Assembly (NCBI GenBank): GCA_020349885.1
Contig: CP070701.1
Coordinates: forward strand, 2,238,938-2,284,431
Reading direction: 5' to 3'
Source: Acidobacteriota bacterium
GTDB lineage: Bacteria; Acidobacteriota; G020349885
DNA length: 45,494 bases
Shown in pieces: positions 16,720-27,981 of this stretch. The position numbers and the translations under genes were made by a program. The notes beneath the pieces are model-generated. The model did not search any database. It was given only the letters and a program-made list of their open reading frames with translations, and was not told the DNA's origin. Position 1 is the first letter of the stretch, and each line of letters starts with the position of its first letter.

Positions 16720-17421
16720 ATGAAGATTCATACGCGGCAGGTCGGCCCCCTTCAAAACAACGTTTTCGTCGTCACGGACGATGAGGGCCGCGAGGGCATT
16801 CTGGTGGATCCGGCGTGGGGGAGCGACGCCCTGGAAGGCTGGGTCAAGGGCATCGGTTGCGACATTCTCGCCATCCTCGACACGCACGGCCACTTCGACC
16901 ACTGCTTCGAGAACGCCCTCTACCGCCGCCTCACCGGAGCAAGACTTTTGGTTCACAGAGACGACAACGCGTGGCTTGAGCAGCAGGGCAAGCAGGGGAC
17001 GGCGTGTGGCGTCGAGGCGCCCGAGTCGCCGTCCGCGGACGAAAACGTCCGCGACGCGCAGGTCCTCAAACTCGGCTGCGAGGAAGCCCACGTCTTTCAC
17101 TGCCCCGGCCACACCGAGGGAAGCACATGCCTCTACGTGCCGGCGGCCGTCGTGGCGGGGAATTCCTCCATGGCGGACACGTCGGAAAAACCCGAGGCCC
17201 GAAGCCCCGCACCCGCCGTTCTTACGGGCGATGCCCTCTTCCGCGGCTCCATCGGCCGCACCGATTTGCCGGGCGGCGACTTTTCGACGCTCATCAAATC
17301 AATCCACTCGAAAATTTTGACGCTTCCCGACGAAACGCTCGTTCTTCCCGGCCACAACGACTTTTCCACCGTCGACGAAGAACGCCAAACGAATCCTTTT
17401 CTGACGGGGAAACATTTTTAA
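16720..17421 (+). CDS. Metallo-beta-lactamase-fold hydrolase (glyoxalase II-like)
   Basis: 233 residues. The metal-binding THGHFDH is at 55-61, with further ligands H131 (CPGHTEGS), D171 (TGDALFRGSIGRTDLPGGD) and H212 (LPGHNDF). The terminal ERQTNPFL is shared by short glyoxalase II-like thioesterases. It probably hydrolyses a thioester or related ester in the cytoplasm, with substrate unknown. An insert of about 20 Ala/Ser/Pro-rich residues (147-167) just before the TGD motif looks like a non-conserved loop. The frame is open far upstream through the antisense of the acidic repeats, but MKIHTRQVGPLQNNVFVV is the family start. It precedes RNase Y by 14 nt. Confidence 0.85.
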   Translation: MKIHTRQVGPLQNNVFVVTDDEGREGILVDPAWGSDALEGWVKGIGCDILAILDTHGHFDHCFENALYRRLTGARLLVHRDDNAWLEQQGKQGTACGVEAPESPSADENVRDAQVLKLGCEEAHVFHCPGHTEGSTCLYVPAAVVAGNSSMADTSEKPEARSPAPAVLTGDALFRGSIGRTDLPGGDFSTLIKSIHSKILTLPDETLVLPGHNDFSTVDEERQTNPFLTGKHF

Positions 17422-17435
17422 AAGAGGGGAAAACC

Positions 17436-18965
17436 ATGGAATATTTGCCCTTGATGGTTATCGTTGCGGCGACGGCCCTTCTCTTCTTGGGCCTTGGCTG
17501 GCGGCTGCGCAGCCGCGAGGATACCGAGCCGAAAGACGCCCTAAAGAAAAAAAGACCCTACGAAGCGCCCTCCATAGCCGCGACGCGGCCGGACCCGTCG
17601 GCGCTGATTAAGGAAGACCTCGCTTTTTCGGAGCGCGAGCTGGCTCTCGAGGAGCGGGAACGTAAGCTCCGGGAGCGCACGAACGCTCTGGGCGAGCAGG
17701 AGAAGCGCCTCAAGGAAGAAAAGAGCGACCTCAACGCACAGACGGCGGCGCTCGAGGCACGCCGCGCCGAGGTGGAGGGGGAGCGCGAATCCATCGCCGC
17801 CGCGCGCGCGCGCTACGAAGAAGCGCTCGGCAAGGCTGCGAGCCTCGCGCCCGACGAGGCCAAGCAGGAGCTTTTTCGCAGCCTTCGCTCGCATTTTGAA
17901 AGGGCGGCGGAAAAAGCCGCGGCCGAGGCGCGCCGCCTCGCCCTTGCGCGCGCCGACAGGGACGCCCGCCGCATCCTCTCGACGGCCGTCTCCCGTCTTG
18001 CCCTTGACGCCGCGCGTGATCTCATGCTCCATGAGGTCATCCTCCCGCATGAGTCTTACAAAGGAAAAATCATCGGCAAAGAGGGCCGGAACATCCGCGC
18101 CTTCGAGAGCGAAACCCGCGTCAAGCTCATCATTGACGACGCGCCGCGCCGCATCCTTCTGTCCGCCTTCGACCCCGAGCAGCGCGAAGCGGCGCGGCAG
18201 GTGCTTTTGAGAATGATCGAGACGGACCGCTTCCATCCCGACGCTATCACGGAATTCACGGCGGAGGTGAGCACCGGCTTCGAAGCGTCCGTCGAGGAGG
18301 CGGGCCACGAGGCGTTCCTCGAAGCCGTGCTCGACGAAAAGGCCGAGGTGAATCCCGGTCTCCTGCGGCTCATGGGACGTCTCAAGTTCCTGAACGTCCA
18401 CGGCCAGAATCTTCTGCACCACTCGATCGAGGTGGCGCACCTTGCGGGCATTATGGCCGACGAGATGGGGCTCGACGGGCGGGCGGCGCGACGCGCCGGA
18501 TTCTTTCATGACGTTGGCTACGCCCTCACGCACGAGAAGCCGGGGACGCACCCGGAGGTCGGCGCCGAAGAGGCCGCGCGCCTGGGCGAATCGGCCGTGG
18601 TGGTGAACGCGATCGCCGCGCACCATGAAGACGCGCCCGCCGAATCGTTCGTCGCGGGGCTCGTTGCGGCGGCGAACGTCATCTCGACCTCACGCGCGGG
18701 CGTGCGCACCCGTATGGCGGCCGATCCCATCCGCCGCATGGAGGAAGCGGAGCGCCTCGCGAAGGAATTCCCCGGCGTCGAGGAAGCCTACGCCGTTCAC
18801 AGCAACCACGAGGTGCGCGTCATCGTCGACCCCGGTTCGATCGACGAACCAAAGGCCGAGGCGCTCTCGGCCGCCATCGCCCAGCGCATCGAGAAGGAAA
18901 TCGAATACTCGGGAAAGATCGTCGTGACCGTCGTCCGCGAGACGCGCGCGGAGGCGACGGGGTGA
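17436..18965 (+). CDS. rny: Ribonuclease Y
   Basis: 509 residues. RNase Y is a membrane-anchored endoribonuclease that initiates mRNA decay. There is one N-terminal membrane helix (LMVIVAATALLFLGLGW), a long coiled coil (about residues 60-190, rich in Glu/Arg/Lys heptads), a KH domain (KGKIIGKEGRNIRAFESETR, about 203-262) and an HD domain. The HD domain shows HSIEVAHLAG, FFHDVGYALTHEKPGTHPEVG and NAIAAHHED (about 325-410). The HD pair reads HDVGYA rather than the usual HDIGKA. The ribosome binding site GAGGGG precedes ATG 17436. Confidence 0.93.
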   Translation: MEYLPLMVIVAATALLFLGLGWRLRSREDTEPKDALKKKRPYEAPSIAATRPDPSALIKEDLAFSERELALEERERKLRERTNALGEQEKRLKEEKSDLNAQTAALEARRAEVEGERESIAAARARYEEALGKAASLAPDEAKQELFRSLRSHFERAAEKAAAEARRLALARADRDARRILSTAVSRLALDAARDLMLHEVILPHESYKGKIIGKEGRNIRAFESETRVKLIIDDAPRRILLSAFDPEQREAARQVLLRMIETDRFHPDAITEFTAEVSTGFEASVEEAGHEAFLEAVLDEKAEVNPGLLRLMGRLKFLNVHGQNLLHHSIEVAHLAGIMADEMGLDGRAARRAGFFHDVGYALTHEKPGTHPEVGAEEAARLGESAVVVNAIAAHHEDAPAESFVAGLVAAANVISTSRAGVRTRMAADPIRRMEEAERLAKEFPGVEEAYAVHSNHEVRVIVDPGSIDEPKAEALSAAIAQRIEKEIEYSGKIVVTVVRETRAEATG

Positions 18966-20482: not shown

Positions 20483-20578
20483 ATGCCTTACAGGGAGGGC
20501 TTCGAAAGGCGGTATGAGTGCTCCGGGAGCGGGAGGGGGAGGTGCGTCCGGGGCGCCGCCGGGGAGGTGAGGAGGTGA
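20483..20578 (+). CDS. Short ORF coupled to the giant propeller gene (possible leader peptide)
   Basis: 31 residues starting MPYREGFERRYECSGSG, Arg/Gly-rich, with two cysteines. It has the strongest initiation signals in this stretch: AAAAGGAG 8 nt before an ATG, and a promoter-like AT-rich region upstream. Its TGA (20576-20578) overlaps the GTG start of the giant gene (20575) in a GTGA. I recognise no family. It may be a translational-coupling leader, or the real initiation site of a gene whose frame was shifted; only the arrangement is certain. Confidence 0.4.
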   Translation: MPYREGFERRYECSGSGRGRCVRGAAGEVRR

Positions 20579-23500
20579 AAGGGCGCAAGGGGACGGCTCG
20601 CACCGGGGGGCTTAATTTCCGATTCTTGCTCCTCGCTGCTTGCTTCTTACTCCTCTTCTGCCTTCCAAACGCCGCCTTCGCGCAGACCTGGGCAAAGACC
20701 TACGGCGGTACCTTAGACGAAAGTGCCTACTCCATCCAGCAGACCTCGGACGGCGGCTACGTCGTGGCGGGGCACACCATGTCCTTCGAGGCAGACTACT
20801 TCGAGGATTTCTGGATTTTGAAGCTGGACGCCCCGGGCAACGTCGTGTGGCAGAAAAGATACGGCGGCGCTGACGATGACACTGTGTCCTCCGTTCAGCA
20901 GACGGCGGACGGCGGCTACGTCGTGGCGGGATGTACGAAGTCCTTCGGCGCGGGAAGTCAGTATGCTTGGGTACTGAAGCTGGACGCCAACGGGGATCTT
21001 GGTCCGCCGGGAACGTGGCAGAAGATGTACGGCACTGGTGCTGACATTGCCAGATCCATCCAGCAGACGGCGGACGGGGGCTACGTCGTGGCGGGAAGGA
21101 CGGTCTCCGTCGGTGGCGGTTCTGATTTCTGGGTTCTGAAACTGGATGCCGATGGGAATGTTGGCCCGGCATATCCTGGAACATGGCAGAAGACCTACGG
21201 CGGTGTTTACGTTGATAGTGCCACCTCCATCCAGCAGACGGCGGACGGGGGCTACGTCGTGGCGGGATATACGTATTCCTTCGGCGCGGGCACCCCAACG
21301 CATCCTAATCTATGGGTTCTAAAGTTAGACGCCAATGGGGACCTTGGCACGCCGGGAACATGGCAGAAGACCTACGGCGGCGACGGCGGTTCTAATGATT
21401 CCGCCAGCTCCATCCAGCAGACGGCGGACGGGGGCTACGTCGTGGCGGGAAGTACGTCCTCCTTTGGCGCGGGCTCGAATGATTTCTGGGTGCTGAAGCT
21501 GGATGCCAACGGGGACCTTGGTCCGCTGGGAACATGGCAGAAGACCTACGGCGGCACCTCTAGTGATTCCGCCGGCTCCATCCAGCAGACCGCGGACGGC
21601 GGCTACGTCGTGGCGGGACATACAGGATCCTTTGGTGCGGGCAGTGGAGATTTCTGGGTTTTGAAGCTGGACGCCGATGGGAATGTTGGCCCGTTATTTC
21701 CTGGAACATGGCAGAAGACCTACGGTGGCGCTGATTATGAGTCGGCCCGCTCTATTCAGCAGACGACGGACAGCGGCTTCGTCGTGGCGGGATATAAGGA
21801 ATCCTACGAGGCGGTCTTCCTCGTGGATTTCTGGGTTTTGAAGATGGATGCCAACGGAGACATTGATCCCGCTTGCACGTTCATCTCGGATACGGACGTG
21901 GCGGGCGTCGACAGCTTGGCAACCGTGGAAAACACGACGGCGATTGTAGAAGATACCACGGTTACACCCGCGGATACGACCGCATCGTACGCGGATACGG
22001 CGGCGAATGTTTGCGATCCCTGCACGTCTCCAGCCGCGGCGCCGACAGTGACTCCCAATCCGGCCGCGTGCGGCACGGCGCACACCTTCGCCTTGAACGC
22101 CACGGGCGGCACGCCGCCCTATGTCGCGGAGTGGGATTTCGACGGCGATTCCAACGTCGATTCGGTCACGGTGGGCGATTCGACGAGTTACACATATCCC
22201 GCACCGGGAGACTATTCGCCCAAGGTGCGTGTAGGCACCGGATGCCTGGCGGGAGCGGCCTGGATACCGTTAGGCTCCGTAACCGTTCAGTGTCCCGGAC
22301 TTAACTACATCGGCCATACGTTCGCCGATTGCGGGAACGCGGACGGCTTCATAGATCCAGGCGAGACAATCAACCTCGACGCCACGGCGCAGAACACGGG
22401 CAATGCGGGCGCTTTCAGCGTAAGCGGAGAGCTTTCCACGTCGACGCCGGGGGTCACGGTGTTCGTGAACAACGCCTCGTTCCCCGACGTTTCCATGGGA
22501 GGCTCTGGAACGTCGCTCACGCCGTTCCAATTCATCATGGACGCCGGCGTGCCCTGCGGGACGCTCGTGGACTTCACGCTCGACCTGACCTACCAGGACA
22601 CTTGGGGGAATCCCTTCTCCAGCGCCGCAGCGTCGTTTCAGGTGCAGGTCGGCCGGTATCTGGCGCCGCTTTTTTCGGAAGACTTCGAAGCGTGCACCGT
22701 TCCCCCGCCCGGGTGGACGGAGATTGAAAACGGCGATACGACGCTGGGATGGGAGCCCGACGGCCCGAGCTGCCCGTTAGGGTGTTGGCCGAAATATGTC
22801 CTACCGACCAACTACGCCGTTAACAACAGCTTTGACCCCTGCCAGAATTGGCAGTTGACCACCGACACCGAGCTCATCACGCCGCCCATCGACGCCTCGG
22901 CCGCAACCAACGTGACGCTCATCTTCGACCACCATTTCCGAGGCGCTGCAGGCGGGGGGGGCGTCGGCGCGGAGACGGCCGCGGTGAAGGCGCGGAGCAT
23001 CAACACGGGCGGCGCATGGTCTACCCTGGTTCAGTGGGACGAGACGCAGACCAACAAGGGGACGATCGTGCTCGACGCGACGGCGGAGTGCGCGGGGGCC
23101 GCGGACTGCCAGTTTGAGTGGCGCTACGGGAAAGCCCAGGACGATTTGTTCTGGGCCGTGGACAACGTGGCGGTGCAGGAGTTGGTCTGCAGCCCGGCGG
23201 CGTGCGGCGGCTGCTCGGCGGGCTCGGACATTCTGCCGGACGCGCCGGCGATTTGCGCGGGCGCGTGCGCGGCGCTCGATGCGAATCCGTCGGGAGGGAC
23301 GCCGCCCTACAGCTACTCGTGGAGCACCGGGGAGACGGCGAGGGTCATCACGGTAGACCCTGCGGTCACGACGGCGTATTCGGTGACGGTGACCGATTCC
23401 AAGGGCTGCACGGCCCTGTCGAGCGAGACGGTGACGGTGGAGGGCTGCCCCACTTGGGCGCGGACGTACGGGCACCCTCACTATGACGTTTCCTACGCCG

Positions 23501-26052
23501 TCCAGCAGATGTCGGACGGCGGCTACGTCGTGGCGGGAACCATGTATTCCTTCGCCTGGGACGGTTTTGATACGTGGGTATTGAAGCTGGATGCTTTGGG
23601 GAACGTCCAGTGGGAGAAGATGTACTACCCTGGTCCAAGTTGGCCGACGACTGAACGTTACTCCATCCAGCAGACTACGGACGGCGGCTGTGTCATAGCG
23701 TGGGGCCAATCCAGCCTTTTTCTTATTTTGAAGCTGGACGCTTCGGGGGAGACGCAATGGTATAAGGACTATCCCGGCCTCTCGTCGTTTGGGGGGGGTC
23801 ATTCCGACCGAGCCATTCAACAGACCACGGACGGCGGCTACATCATAGCGGGAGGGGTGAACGCAGGTGGCCACGCCTTGGTTGCGAAGCTGGATGCCTG
23901 GGGGGAGATTCAGTGGTATAAAACCTACAGCGACCTTAACATTTTGGTTGGCGGAGGGGACATCTACGCCATTCAACAAACCACGGACGGCGGCTACGTC
24001 GCGGCGGGAGACTACTGTGGCGGAGCGGTCTGCGGTCTCCTAGTTTTTAAGCTGGACGCCTCGGGAAGCGTCGTGTGGGAGAAGGTCTACACCGGCGGCG
24101 GTGATACAGCCTACTCCATTGAGCAGACCACGGACGGCGGCTATATCGTGGGGGGAACCGGTTCATGGATTCTGAAGCTGGACGCGTTGGGCAAAATCGA
24201 GTGGGAGAAGATGTACGGTGGTGGTATCGCCCGTTCCGTCCAGCAGACGTCGGACGGCAACTTCATCGCGACGGGAGACAATATGCCGGTTTTGAAGCTG
24301 GACGCCTACGGCAATATCGAGTGGCAGAAGAGCTATGGAGACACCCCCCACTCCATCCGGCAGACCATGGACGGCGGTTTCGCCATGGCGGGATATACTC
24401 AAGCTTTCGGCGCAGGCTTGGCGGATTTCTGGATTTTGAGACTGGACGCAAACGGAAACATCGATCCTTCCTGCACGTTCATTTCGGATACATCGGCCAA
24501 GGCTACGGATACCTCGGCAAATGTTCACTCCTCTGGTTTAGCGGAAGACCCCTTTTTCACGTTAACGGTTGCGAACAACTCCGCCGTGGGCATCGTCGCG
24601 CCTTCGGTGGTCACGGAGCCGTGCGCGGGGAGCAGCGGCTGCCCGCCGCTTTCGTGCTCGGCATCGGTGGACGCGGCGGCGGTGTGCCTCGGCGCGGCGC
24701 AGACCTTCGTCGGAAATCTCCCCGGCTGCAGCGTCGCTCCTCTCGTCTTCGAGTGGGACTTCGACTACGACGGCGTCACCTTTACCGCGATGGATTCGGG
24801 CACGACCGTGGGCTACACCTACCCGGCGGCCGGCTCCTACACGGCGGCGTTTCGGGTGACCGACTCCTGCACCGCTCCCGGGCCGCAGACGTGCCTTTCC
24901 ACGATTCCCATCACAGTCGCAGTGCCAGACGTGGCCTACGACGCGACGACTGCGCTCGTGCAGGCGTGCGGCGACGGCGACCTGCTCGCCGAGCCGGGCG
25001 AGGAATGGCAGGCGACGGTGCGGCTCGTTAACAACGCCGGGTGCACCGTGAACAACGTCGAGGCGGATTTGACGGTCAACCCGGGCTCTGCGGTGGCGGC
25101 CGCGGTGTGCAACAACCCGGGCGCCTACGGCAGCATCCCCCCGCTCGGCACGGCGCAGTACACGTATTCCTTCGTCGTGGATTCGCTGGCGGTCTGCGTG
25201 AACGATGTCCTGTTCGACGTGACGGGCATCGTCTCGGACGAGGGGGCGTATCCTGACGAGACTGCGGCGTTCGGCGTCACCGTGGGCCAGGTGACCGTGA
25301 CCGCGGTGCAGGCGACGGACCCGCTGGCGGCAAAGAACGCAACGGCAAGCTCGCTCTTTGCGCCCGCGTTACCCTTCGCGCTCCCCGTGGCCTTGGCCGA
25401 GCTTTCTTACACGCTGACCCATGAGGGCGGGGCCGCGGACGTGCTGGATTGCGCGAAGGTGGAGCTTCTCGACCCAGTGGGGGGGCCGACCCTGATAAAA
25501 GACTTCGGCGTGGCGGACCCGCCCAAGCCCGTTGACGTAACCGGTTCCTACATCGGAATAGGCACCTACGAGCTTCAGCTGACGGAAGCGGGCAAAGGGT
25601 GCGGAAGCGGCAGTGCGACCATCTCGTCGGGGACGCTGAGTATAACCAGCGGCGCGGAATGCGACGTGAGCGGGTGCACGTGTCCGGCGAGTGCGGATCC
25701 CGCCGCCGTCCCCGACGGGGGCGCCGTGCCGGGGACGCCGCTCATGGTGGCGGACGCGGGGGGCGGAGCCGTCACTTTGACGTGGGACGCCGCATGCAAC
25801 GCCACGGACTACGCCGTCATGGTAGGCGATTTGAGCACGCTCGGCTCGGGCTACAACCACGCGCCCTCGGTCTGCACCGACGCGGGCGGCGACCTGACGG
25901 AGACGATCGCGCCCGCGGGGGCGACGCTCTATTTTCTCGTCGTGCCCCATAACGGCACCTCGGAAGGCTCCTACGGAACGGACAGCGCCGCCGTTGAGAG
26001 GCCGCCCGCCGCCGGGGCGTGCCACGCGCAGAGCATCGGAAGCTGTATCTAA
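20575..26052 (+). CDS. Giant secreted multidomain protein with two seven-repeat propellers, PKD and Fn3-like domains
   Basis: 1825 residues. Signal peptide 1-36 (FLLLAACFLLLFCLPNAAFA, cleavage before QTW). Domains in order: first propeller, about 39-440, seven copies of a 53-61 residue unit with the core SIQQTADGGYVVAG and FWVLKLDANGD plus TWQKTYGG; PKD-like (about 480-572, WDFDGDSN); Ig/CARDB-like (about 575-695); jelly-roll or MAM-like (about 700-870, FSEDFEACTVPPPGWTEIE); PKD/SprB-like (about 890-955, GGTPPYSYSWSTGE); second propeller, about 957-1308, seven more units; PKD (about 1358-1452); CARDB-like (about 1453-1568); Fn3-like end (about 1708-1805). Both propellers close with an almost identical DANGDIDPACTFISDT / DANGNIDPSCTFISDT. 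It is probably a cell-surface or extracellular binding protein; the ligand is unknown. GTG 20575 is favoured by GGAGGTGAGGA upstream; an earlier GTG at 20518 is possible. Confidence 0.85.
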   Translation: MKGRKGTARTGGLNFRFLLLAACFLLLFCLPNAAFAQTWAKTYGGTLDESAYSIQQTSDGGYVVAGHTMSFEADYFEDFWILKLDAPGNVVWQKRYGGADDDTVSSVQQTADGGYVVAGCTKSFGAGSQYAWVLKLDANGDLGPPGTWQKMYGTGADIARSIQQTADGGYVVAGRTVSVGGGSDFWVLKLDADGNVGPAYPGTWQKTYGGVYVDSATSIQQTADGGYVVAGYTYSFGAGTPTHPNLWVLKLDANGDLGTPGTWQKTYGGDGGSNDSASSIQQTADGGYVVAGSTSSFGAGSNDFWVLKLDANGDLGPLGTWQKTYGGTSSDSAGSIQQTADGGYVVAGHTGSFGAGSGDFWVLKLDADGNVGPLFPGTWQKTYGGADYESARSIQQTTDSGFVVAGYKESYEAVFLVDFWVLKMDANGDIDPACTFISDTDVAGVDSLATVENTTAIVEDTTVTPADTTASYADTAANVCDPCTSPAAAPTVTPNPAACGTAHTFALNATGGTPPYVAEWDFDGDSNVDSVTVGDSTSYTYPAPGDYSPKVRVGTGCLAGAAWIPLGSVTVQCPGLNYIGHTFADCGNADGFIDPGETINLDATAQNTGNAGAFSVSGELSTSTPGVTVFVNNASFPDVSMGGSGTSLTPFQFIMDAGVPCGTLVDFTLDLTYQDTWGNPFSSAAASFQVQVGRYLAPLFSEDFEACTVPPPGWTEIENGDTTLGWEPDGPSCPLGCWPKYVLPTNYAVNNSFDPCQNWQLTTDTELITPPIDASAATNVTLIFDHHFRGAAGGGGVGAETAAVKARSINTGGAWSTLVQWDETQTNKGTIVLDATAECAGAADCQFEWRYGKAQDDLFWAVDNVAVQELVCSPAACGGCSAGSDILPDAPAICAGACAALDANPSGGTPPYSYSWSTGETARVITVDPAVTTAYSVTVTDSKGCTALSSETVTVEGCPTWARTYGHPHYDVSYAVQQMSDGGYVVAGTMYSFAWDGFDTWVLKLDALGNVQWEKMYYPGPSWPTTERYSIQQTTDGGCVIAWGQSSLFLILKLDASGETQWYKDYPGLSSFGGGHSDRAIQQTTDGGYIIAGGVNAGGHALVAKLDAWGEIQWYKTYSDLNILVGGGDIYAIQQTTDGGYVAAGDYCGGAVCGLLVFKLDASGSVVWEKVYTGGGDTAYSIEQTTDGGYIVGGTGSWILKLDALGKIEWEKMYGGGIARSVQQTSDGNFIATGDNMPVLKLDAYGNIEWQKSYGDTPHSIRQTMDGGFAMAGYTQAFGAGLADFWILRLDANGNIDPSCTFISDTSAKATDTSANVHSSGLAEDPFFTLTVANNSAVGIVAPSVVTEPCAGSSGCPPLSCSASVDAAAVCLGAAQTFVGNLPGCSVAPLVFEWDFDYDGVTFTAMDSGTTVGYTYPAAGSYTAAFRVTDSCTAPGPQTCLSTIPITVAVPDVAYDATTALVQACGDGDLLAEPGEEWQATVRLVNNAGCTVNNVEADLTVNPGSAVAAAVCNNPGAYGSIPPLGTAQYTYSFVVDSLAVCVNDVLFDVTGIVSDEGAYPDETAAFGVTVGQVTVTAVQATDPLAAKNATASSLFAPALPFALPVALAELSYTLTHEGGAADVLDCAKVELLDPVGGPTLIKDFGVADPPKPVDVTGSYIGIGTYELQLTEAGKGCGSGSATISSGTLSITSGAECDVSGCTCPASADPAAVPDGGAVPGTPLMVADAGGGAVTLTWDAACNATDYAVMVGDLSTLGSGYNHAPSVCTDAGGDLTETIAPAGATLYFLVVPHNGTSEGSYGTDSAAVERPPAAGACHAQSIGSCI
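20689..21894 (+). repeat. First set of seven tandem propeller-blade repeats
   Basis: Seven copies of a 159-183 nt unit. The marker ATCCAGCAGAC begins at about 20734, 20893 (variant), 21058, 21229, 21412, 21580 and 21754 (variant). Copies three to six share long identical DNA around the CAGACGGCGGACGGGGGCTA block. Spacings of 159, 165, 171, 183, 168 and 174 nt are all multiples of three. Confidence 0.9.
23445..24500 (+). repeat. Second, more divergent set of seven propeller-blade repeats
   Basis: Seven units recognised by the core motif: YAVQQMSDGGYVVAG, YSIQQTTDGGCVIA, RAIQQTTDGGYIIAG, YAIQQTTDGGYVAAG, YSIEQTTDGGYIVGG, RSVQQTSDGNFIATG and HSIRQTMDGGFAMAG. They are shorter and more varied than the first set and end in the same CTFISDT closure. 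Confidence 0.88.
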
Positions 26053-26163: not shown

Positions 26164-27981
26164 ATGAGCCAGTCGAAGAGCTGCCGCCCGGCGGCGTCCG
26201 CTCCTTCCCCCTCGCCTTGGGTGCGCGCGGCCTCCCTCGACGCGCTTCGCGCCGAGGGGCGCGCGGCCGTTCAGGCAGGCGGGAGGGACATCGCGCTGTT
26301 TCTTGTCGAAGGCCGCGCTTACGCCTGCCAGAACGCCTGCCCGCACCAGGGCCATCCCCTCGTGCAGGGCGAGGTCGCTGCGCGGGAGAACGACCGCGGC
26401 GAGAAGGGCTGCGTCCTCACGTGCGTGTGGCACAACTGGAAATTCTCCCTTCCCGAAGGCCGGTGCGTCATGGGCGGCGAGGACGTGCGCGCGTACCCGG
26501 CGCGTGTCGAGGGCGACGGCGTTTTCCTCGACCTCGGGGAGCCCGACCCGCGCGAGAATCTCCGGCAAAACTTGCGCAAGGCGCTCCGCAAGAACAAGGG
26601 CGGGCGCATGGCGCGCGCCGCGGTGCAGCTCCTCAAGCTCGGCGCCAGTCCCCGCGACGTGGTCCGCGAGGCCGCCCGCCACGGCTGCACGTGCGGCGAG
26701 GAGGGCTGGAGCGTGGAGCTCTGCGCCGCCGTGGACTGCGCGCACGCCCTCGCGCTCTACGGGGACGAGGAGAAAATTTTTCCGCTCATGCAGGCGCTCT
26801 CGCTTGCGGCGGAGCCGAACGTCCGCCGCGAGCCGCGCGAGATTCCCGAGCCCGCCGACCTGTCGGCGTACGCCTCGAAGGAAAAGGTATTGGAAAATTT
26901 CCGACGCCTCGTCGAGGAGGAAGAGGCCGAGGCCGCCGAGGCGCTCCTACGCGCCGCCACCTCAGGAAGCGCTCCGGCGCTTGAGGGCGACGAGCTAGCG
27001 CGCGCCCTGATCGTCGCGGCGAGCGACCACTTTCTCGACGACGGCGATTCCCTTCTCTACGTTCTGAAAGCTTCCGAATTGCTCGATATGCTGGGCCGGC
27101 GGGAGGCCGGTTGGATTCTACCCCCGCTCGTTCCGGCCCTCGTCCGCGCGACGCGCAAAGACAAACTCCCTCCCATGAAAGCGACGTCGGAATTCCTGGA
27201 AAAAATTTCCTCCGGCGAGTGGAACAGACTTCTAGAGCGGCGAGGCGAGGCCGCGAAGGAGGATTTCAACGAGGTGGCGTTTCGAAAGACTCTTCTGGGC
27301 GGCGACCCCTGCGCGTCGAACGAAGCCCTTCTCCGCGCGCTCCGCGGCGGTGCCTCCGTCGAGCGCATCGCCTCCTCGATGGCGCTCGCCGCGGCGGAGC
27401 GGATGCTCTCGTTCGACCTTTCCATCGAGCTCGACCCAGCCCAAGGAAAGGAGTGGGACGACGTGACGCAGGCGCTCATCGTGGCGAACGCCGTCCGGGA
27501 GCTCTGGCTGCGTCATCCCGAGCCGGAGCTTGCGCGCGCTCTCTTGTACGAAGCGCACCTCATTGGCGCCCTGGGATCCCTCGCGGCGCCCGACGGCGAG
27601 GGCCCCGCCAGGGCCGCCGGGGGCGAGACAGAAGAGACGCTCCTCGGCGGCATCAAGGACGCCTGCCTGCACCGATTTCCGGAAAAAGCCGTGCTTCTGG
27701 TGCGGCGGTATTTTTTCGAAAACCACGGCGTCGACGCGCTCGAGAAATTTTTCGTCCGCCACGCCCTTGACGACCCCGCGACGAAGGCCTCCGTCGTCGC
27801 AAACATAATCGAGACGACGCGGGCGGCTACCCGGCAGGCCCATGCGCTCGGAAAGAGTCCCGACCGCCGCCTTCTCTACGAGGCCCTCGCGCGCTTTCTG
27901 GCGTCGCCCCGGCGCGAACGCGGCACGGTGCTATGCGCATGGAAAGGACTCCGGTTCGCAGCCAAGGTCTCTCCTTCATGA
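26164..27981 (+). CDS. Rieske [2Fe-2S] domain fused to a large helical domain
   Basis: 605 residues. The N-terminal about 125 residues are a Rieske domain. Its cluster ligands are C59/H61 (CPHQGHPL) and C87/H90 (CVWHNWKF), with an acidic insertion between the two motifs. No signal peptide or Tat motif is seen, so it is probably cytoplasmic. The other about 475 residues (130-605) are predicted mostly helical, with alanine-rich segments and His/Asp/Glu-containing helices such as DHFLDDGDSLLYVLKASELLDML and VLLVRRYFFENHGVDALEKFF. I do not recognise this part with certainty; an oxygenase-like or HEAT-type helical fold are both possible. The Rieske part may feed electrons to it. First gene of a probable three-gene operon. 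Confidence 0.75.
   Translation: MSQSKSCRPAASAPSPSPWVRAASLDALRAEGRAAVQAGGRDIALFLVEGRAYACQNACPHQGHPLVQGEVAARENDRGEKGCVLTCVWHNWKFSLPEGRCVMGGEDVRAYPARVEGDGVFLDLGEPDPRENLRQNLRKALRKNKGGRMARAAVQLLKLGASPRDVVREAARHGCTCGEEGWSVELCAAVDCAHALALYGDEEKIFPLMQALSLAAEPNVRREPREIPEPADLSAYASKEKVLENFRRLVEEEEAEAAEALLRAATSGSAPALEGDELARALIVAASDHFLDDGDSLLYVLKASELLDMLGRREAGWILPPLVPALVRATRKDKLPPMKATSEFLEKISSGEWNRLLERRGEAAKEDFNEVAFRKTLLGGDPCASNEALLRALRGGASVERIASSMALAAAERMLSFDLSIELDPAQGKEWDDVTQALIVANAVRELWLRHPEPELARALLYEAHLIGALGSLAAPDGEGPARAAGGETEETLLGGIKDACLHRFPEKAVLLVRRYFFENHGVDALEKFFVRHALDDPATKASVVANIIETTRAATRQAHALGKSPDRRLLYEALARFLASPRRERGTVLCAWKGLRFAAKVSPS

Follow-up and report, generated by a model that had tools for sequence, protein, structure and literature searches.

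The window analysed here, a stretch of 45,494 nucleotides from contig CP070701.1 of an Acidobacteriota bacterium (GCA_020349885.1), encodes on its forward strand a large modular protein, designated P0001, that carries a signal peptide, two arrays of seven repeats, a cysteine-bounded tail after each array, and PKD, CARDB-like, jelly-roll, SprB-repeat and FN3-like modules. The repeats belong to a family of blades, forming propellers that are already known; the tail, which is made of heptads, is the new part. Our overall reading, to which we assign a probability of roughly 0.6, is that P0001 contains twin propellers, each closed by its N-terminal strand, and that each heptad tail forms a disulfide-clasped belt around its propeller.

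Two seven-bladed arrays and their predicted fold

A scan for SIQQTSDGGYVVAG located seven cores in array 1 (at residues 53, 106, 161, 218, 279, 335 and 393, spanning residues 53-406), which share 11-14 of their 14 positions with the query, and seven in array 2 (at residues 975, 1030, 1080, 1132, 1181, 1221 and 1260, spanning residues 975-1273), which share 8-11; an eighth core was found in neither. The cores are matched by seven W.K.YG strands per array, and a blade profile constructed from both arrays and widened with homologues likewise returned 7 + 7. Both arrays end in the motif DANG(D/N)IDP(A/S)CTFISDT. A preceding sequence-only reading of the window had distinguished two sets of the SIQQTxDGGYVVAG unit, counted it exactly seven times in either, and noted a DANGxIDPxCTFISDT motif at the end of both; these observations stand. 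The blades match DUF5122 (PF17164; 48.7 bits versus a curated Pfam cut-off of 27) and delta_60_rpt (TIGR02608; 79.2 versus a curated NCBIfam cut-off of 76.5).

AlphaFold2 was run with homologue alignments on residues 36-945 and 946-1825, and the models were read for strand order rather than for coordinates. They place 28 strands (7x4) in each array, with predicted local distance difference test (pLDDT) values of 80-98 in most propeller blocks. A profile search of the PDB with hmmsearch recovered one family, that of the cyanobacterial enzyme CylK (E 5.6e-31). In VIA comparisons propeller 1 aligned to CylK (7ron) with Z 46.2 over 362 residues, at a root-mean-square deviation of 2.1 Å and 28% identity, and propeller 2 (to 7roo) with Z 37.8 over 325 residues at 2.4 Å, against a background from other propellers of Z ~31-32. 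The 28 predicted strands of each array and the homology to CylK, which is seven-bladed in the crystal, support the prediction that P0001 has two complete propellers of seven blades, as the sequence-only reading had proposed, and place them in the DUF5122/delta-60 family.

In both models the first predicted strand is TWAKTYGG or TWARTYG, and because of this strand order the N-terminus is likely to complete the last blade by supplying its fourth (outer) strand, in the usual Velcro closure. The mature N-terminus of P0001 would then itself be the first propeller strand. The motif at the end of each array had been taken for a closure shared by the two propellers; a closing role is not supported, since the N-terminal strand probably completes the last blade, and DANG...CTFISDT instead opens a separate heptad tail.

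Among homologues, 240 complete arrays were counted with the profile, and 215 of them are seven-bladed, with 15 of six blades, 8 of five and 2 of eight. As these were drawn from ~490 loci gathered by similarity to seven-bladed queries, the share is a biased census, and some of the counts of six and five represent misread, masked or distant members. With a laxer blade threshold L287 and L289 were wrongly scored as eight-bladed; both calls were dropped, the upstream stretch reading as an FN3-like linker. Repeat counts in the family are thus not arbitrary, and seven blades is the rule.

The heptad tail and a proposed belt

The motif that ends each array is the start of a conserved tail of about seven heptads lying between two cysteines, that is, about one heptad per blade. 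Tail 1 reads Cys434 TFISDTD VAGVDSL ATVENTT AIVEDTT VTPADTT ASYADTA ANVCDPC483, with an extra cysteine at 480, and tail 2 is regular in its first two to three heptads and looser afterwards. As a grouping we propose heptad-tailed propellers, marked by a pair of cysteines ~49 residues apart beyond the last blade and by a period of seven in between; both propellers of P0001 belong to it, propeller 2 with the looser period. The spacing between the cysteines in 138 cysteine-tailed seven-bladed arrays is exactly 49 residues in 77 and 48-52 in 123. In 63 non-redundant 49-residue tails the power at period 7 lies 17 standard deviations (polar residues) and 12 standard deviations (hydrophobic residues) above that of shuffles; harmonics are strong at 2.33, whereas periods of 5, 6, 8 and 9 give no signal. 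The heptad consensus is A/V - T/S - V/I/P - x - D/N - T/S - S/T/N. A variant encountered in the tails of L214, L221 and L222 has AP for DT in each heptad (e.g. LTITAPS ISATAPA LSGSAPA) at the same 49-residue cysteine spacing. A search of the open-licence literature found no description of a belt or encircling tail on a propeller, and under the name of the family it yielded a single modelling paper.

The two cysteines occur together in 37 heptad tails and are both missing from 5, with no tail carrying a single one, as a disulfide between them would predict; in those of the cysteine-less tails whose sequences were read, the protein ends directly after the heptads. The models add short strands in the tail, at residues 437-439, 445-446, 450-453 and 457-459 for propeller 1 (heptads 1-4) and at residues 1304-1305, 1311-1312 and 1316-1319 for propeller 2 (heptads 1-3), and in both models each modelled heptad holds its strand within positions 2-5. 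We suggest that the tail circles the rim of the propeller once, every blade gaining a short strand from one heptad, and that a disulfide would join Cys434 to Cys483 and another Cys1300 to Cys1350. The result would be a clasped belt, which could stabilise the propeller outside the cell. Forty-nine extended residues measure ~160 Å, which is near the rim of a 50 Å disc.

The tail might instead be a free-standing spacer or stalk of fixed length bounded by cysteines, with the 7 x 7 correspondence a coincidence of common ancestral length. Its Ser/Thr/Asp-rich composition would suit a linker, and as most tailed propellers are seven-bladed, there is little variation by which to tell tail length apart from blade number. 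However, the predicted strands follow the heptad register, and in several cases (L331, L332, L358, L134) the protein ends with its tail, where a spacer would be needless. The eight-bladed arrays also speak against a fixed length. Two were recognised by the profile, with spacings of 56 (L076) and 58 (L355), and in a third (L395, spacing 56) the profile counts seven blades and reading of the sequence adds a weak one directly after the signal peptide, making eight. Spacings of 56-58, seen in all three, occur in almost no seven-bladed array, and the association of spacing with blade number has a Fisher p of 0.0012 without L395 and 5.6e-5 with it. On this evidence we consider the spacer a less likely explanation than the belt.

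Several observations weigh against the belt and the link of its length to blade number. The eight-bladed cases total three, two of them of one class; moreover, the by-eye recount of L395 followed notice of its spacing and was not blind, which leaves two blind cases. Three regular arrays with six (L019, L377) or five blades (L021) still have tails of 49, as a fixed-length spacer would. A spacing of 49 is also not universal, being often 51-52 in the Myxococcota- and Desulfobacterota-like sets. In the models just the first three to four heptads rise above noise, because the alignment rows end there. Finally, seven blades are also reached without any heptad tail, in CylK and in the homologues from Bacteroidota.

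For the five- and six-bladed arrays, recent blade loss or the collapse of near-identical repeats during metagenome assembly could explain the retained length: their blades share 60-73% mean identity, which would fit a recent change in blade number or copies merged in short-read assembly. The longest exact repeats left in the three arrays are 41, 59 and 24 bp. The tail-less seven-bladed relatives imply that the tail is unnecessary for reaching seven and cannot be the sole cause of blade number, and it is more likely that it stabilises or records that number than that it sets it. For the wider proposition, that many bacterial DUF5122 seven-bladed propellers carry a disulfide-locked belt whose length follows blade number (49 residues with seven blades and 56 with eight), we see the odds as about even.

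If the belt is real, it would represent a second device for closing a propeller besides the Velcro strand, encoded by a heptad for every blade. It would also touch on a published puzzle: propellers multiply from single blades with no system to count them (PMC9218822), and yet each lineage keeps to one blade number, which a tail of matching length could hold or record. It might further offer designers a way to lock propellers, and supply annotators with a simple signature by which a large set of surface proteins could be recognised.

Domain layout and origin of the two arrays

The modules around the propellers are listed in Table 1. The frame of P0001 has an alternative upstream start, a GTG at 20518. 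Outside the propellers pLDDT is mostly <50, because few relatives could be aligned there, and we assign no fold to the domains concerned. Both PKD domains lie near the Pfam threshold, and the best relative of the first (61% identity) is found in another protein of the same genome. The jelly-roll segment also shows a weak match to Reelin subrepeat B in Pfam. As the CARDB-like segments matched no Pfam family, their name is a description only. The segment that follows the second of them adjoins the same domain C-terminally in paralogues. Relatives of the FN3-like domain (34-42% identity) form the very C-terminal end of six further large proteins encoded in the genome, finishing within ~5 residues of the stop, which hints at a role in sorting or anchoring. 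P0001 is a large secreted or surface protein, and from the PKD, jelly-roll, SprB and FN3-like modules that accompany them alone, its propellers would probably act in binding or as spacers within an adhesin or scaffold.

Table 1. Features of P0001, with nucleotide positions in the window
Feature	Position	Strand	Extent	Basis
P0001, gene for large modular protein	20575-26052	+	1825 residues, numbered from GTG at 20575	
Signal peptide	20575..20682	+	residues 1-36 (...NAAFA/QTWAKTYGG)	direct reading of translation
Propeller 1	20689..21873	+	residues 39-433, seven blades of 53-59 residues	core scan, blade profile, AlphaFold2, VIA to CylK
Propeller 1 blade starts	20689, 20848, 21016, 21184, 21361, 21535, 21709	+		
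Tail 1 ('closure' motif and heptads)	21874..22023	+	Cys434-Cys483, spacing 49	sequence reading, spacing count, model strands
PKD domain 1	22027..22290	+		Pfam E 0.0013, below gathering score
CARDB-like domain, subfamily 1	22291..22644	+		no Pfam match; relatives in genome at 50-69% identity
Jelly-roll domain, choice-of-anchor-J type	22645..23199	+		NF038128 E 2.1e-5, below NCBI cut-off (24.8 vs 30 bits)
SprB-repeat segment	23200..23448	+		PF13573 E 6.3e-6, slightly under gathering score
Propeller 2	23455..24462	+	residues 961-1296, seven blades of 40-54 residues	core scan, blade profile, AlphaFold2, VIA to CylK
Propeller 2 blade starts	23455, 23611, 23758, 23914, 24076, 24202, 24322	+		
Tail 2	24472..24624	+	Cys1300-Cys1350, spacing 50	spacing count; short model strands in heptads 1-3
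PKD domain 2	24625..24909	+		PF18911; 42% identical to PKD 1
CARDB-like domain, subfamily 2	24910..25314	+		relatives in genome at 64-74% identity
Segment after CARDB-2, family unassigned	25315..25719	+		no Pfam match; identity to L004 reaches 75%
FN3-like C-terminal domain (by eye)	25720..26049	+		no Pfam match

Two other frames of the window were noted. Just downstream of P0001, a 605-residue frame (26164-27981) has an N-terminal Rieske [2Fe-2S] domain (PF00355, E 3e-13) followed by ~480 residues without a Pfam match, and an RNase Y-like gene (17004-18965; TIGR03319, 417 bits versus a cut-off of 454) has ~200 residues ahead of its matched part.

The sequence-only reading had derived the two arrays from duplication of a whole propeller and had seen the layout propeller-PKD-CARDB repeated between them. 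That order does occur twice in P0001, but a repeated block is not supported: the two CARDB-like domains failed to match each other at E 1e-3 and belong to different subfamilies, each with its relatives in other proteins of the genome, and duplication of the block is rejected on this ground. Nor do the propellers themselves support a history of duplication and subsequent divergence inside the gene. Blades average 67% identity inside propeller 1 and 45% inside propeller 2, and comparisons across the two average 50%. Blades at the same position are 50.2% alike versus 48.9-50.7% in other circular registers, so that there is no positional register between the arrays. The paralogues L112 and L114 resemble propeller 1 more closely (53-54% identity) than propeller 2 does (42%), and in a tree the two arrays are not paired, both being unresolved. 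A sister relation is nevertheless compatible with the data (approximately unbiased test, p 0.23), and the last blade with its 'closure' is the most similar pair between the arrays (75% DNA identity), with the same CTFISDT motif. CTFISDT-like motifs are, however, present in other genes of this genome too, and the last blade with its motif appears to be the single sign of exchange between the arrays. Taken together, these observations make duplication within the gene, whether of a propeller or of the block, improbable. As array 1 is 67% identical within itself and shares no register with array 2, propeller 1 is best read as having been recently re-amplified from single blades, separately from propeller 2, a process described for other propellers (PMC9218822).

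P0001 as a whole looks to have been assembled by module shuffling, since the relatives of its CARDB-like domains sit in other proteins and the paralogue L116 holds several of these modules with a single propeller: it has a propeller, CARDB-1, a jelly roll, and CARDB-2 with the segment that follows it, and by eye it is without a PKD domain. Propeller copies may have spread by the same route. Elsewhere in the genome, which is 2.4 Mb in one contig, five further genes each encode a single seven-bladed propeller. L112 and L113 have long runs of thrombospondin-type-3-like DxDxDG repeats after the propeller tail and L114 a short one, and in L115 and L116 a PPC-like domain (by reading) lies ahead of the propeller. 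Two propellers per chain are ordinary in the DUF5122/delta-60 family, other genomes encoding proteins with two (L080, L190, L202) or three (L200). A Candidatus Fischerbacteria genome (L018; G063/G398) of the same phylum as the window genome gave 143 matches to a model of blade plus tail, and some of its proteins carry two tailed propellers or three (e.g. L190, L200, L202).

Comparison with known systems

The DUF5122 (PF17164) and delta-60 (TIGR02608) models describe the same blade family as that of P0001, and they cover single repeats and not the seven-heptad tail.

The C-terminal propeller of CylK (PDB 7ron, 7roo, 7fh6-7fh8) is homologous to those of P0001 and likewise seven-bladed, but CylK is an enzyme with an N-terminal calcium domain, and its chain stops soon after the last blade, without a heptad tail. 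Its crystal structure has a Ca2+ site at each blade junction, and its active site is formed together with the N-terminal calcium-binding domain (PMC8916777). An acidic residue is present in the blade-connecting loop in all seven blades of propeller 1 and in most of propeller 2. Given that CylK is the nearest solved relative, the propellers of P0001 might be catalytic rather than binding or scaffold modules. However, the calcium domain that the CylK active site needs (PMC8916777) is absent from P0001, where propeller 1 directly follows the signal peptide and propeller 2 the SprB segment, and the modules around both propellers (PKD, jelly-roll, FN3-like) are those of surface proteins; we therefore regard a catalytic role as very improbable and favour one in binding or scaffolding.

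The Bagel propellers (PDB 8prj, 8pra) match the short blades of propeller 2 in sequence (E 1e-5), much more weakly than CylK does, and v31Bagel8 is by its name an eight-bladed design.

WRAP (PDB 2ymu; PMC6805158, PMC9218822), an example of recently amplified propellers, resembles P0001 in having near-identical blades and two seven-bladed propellers per chain; with its 67% blade identity, propeller 1 of P0001 also looks to have been amplified recently. It differs in its WD40 lineage and in being part of a STAND ATPase protein, and the sections of these reports available to us mention no cysteine-bounded tail.

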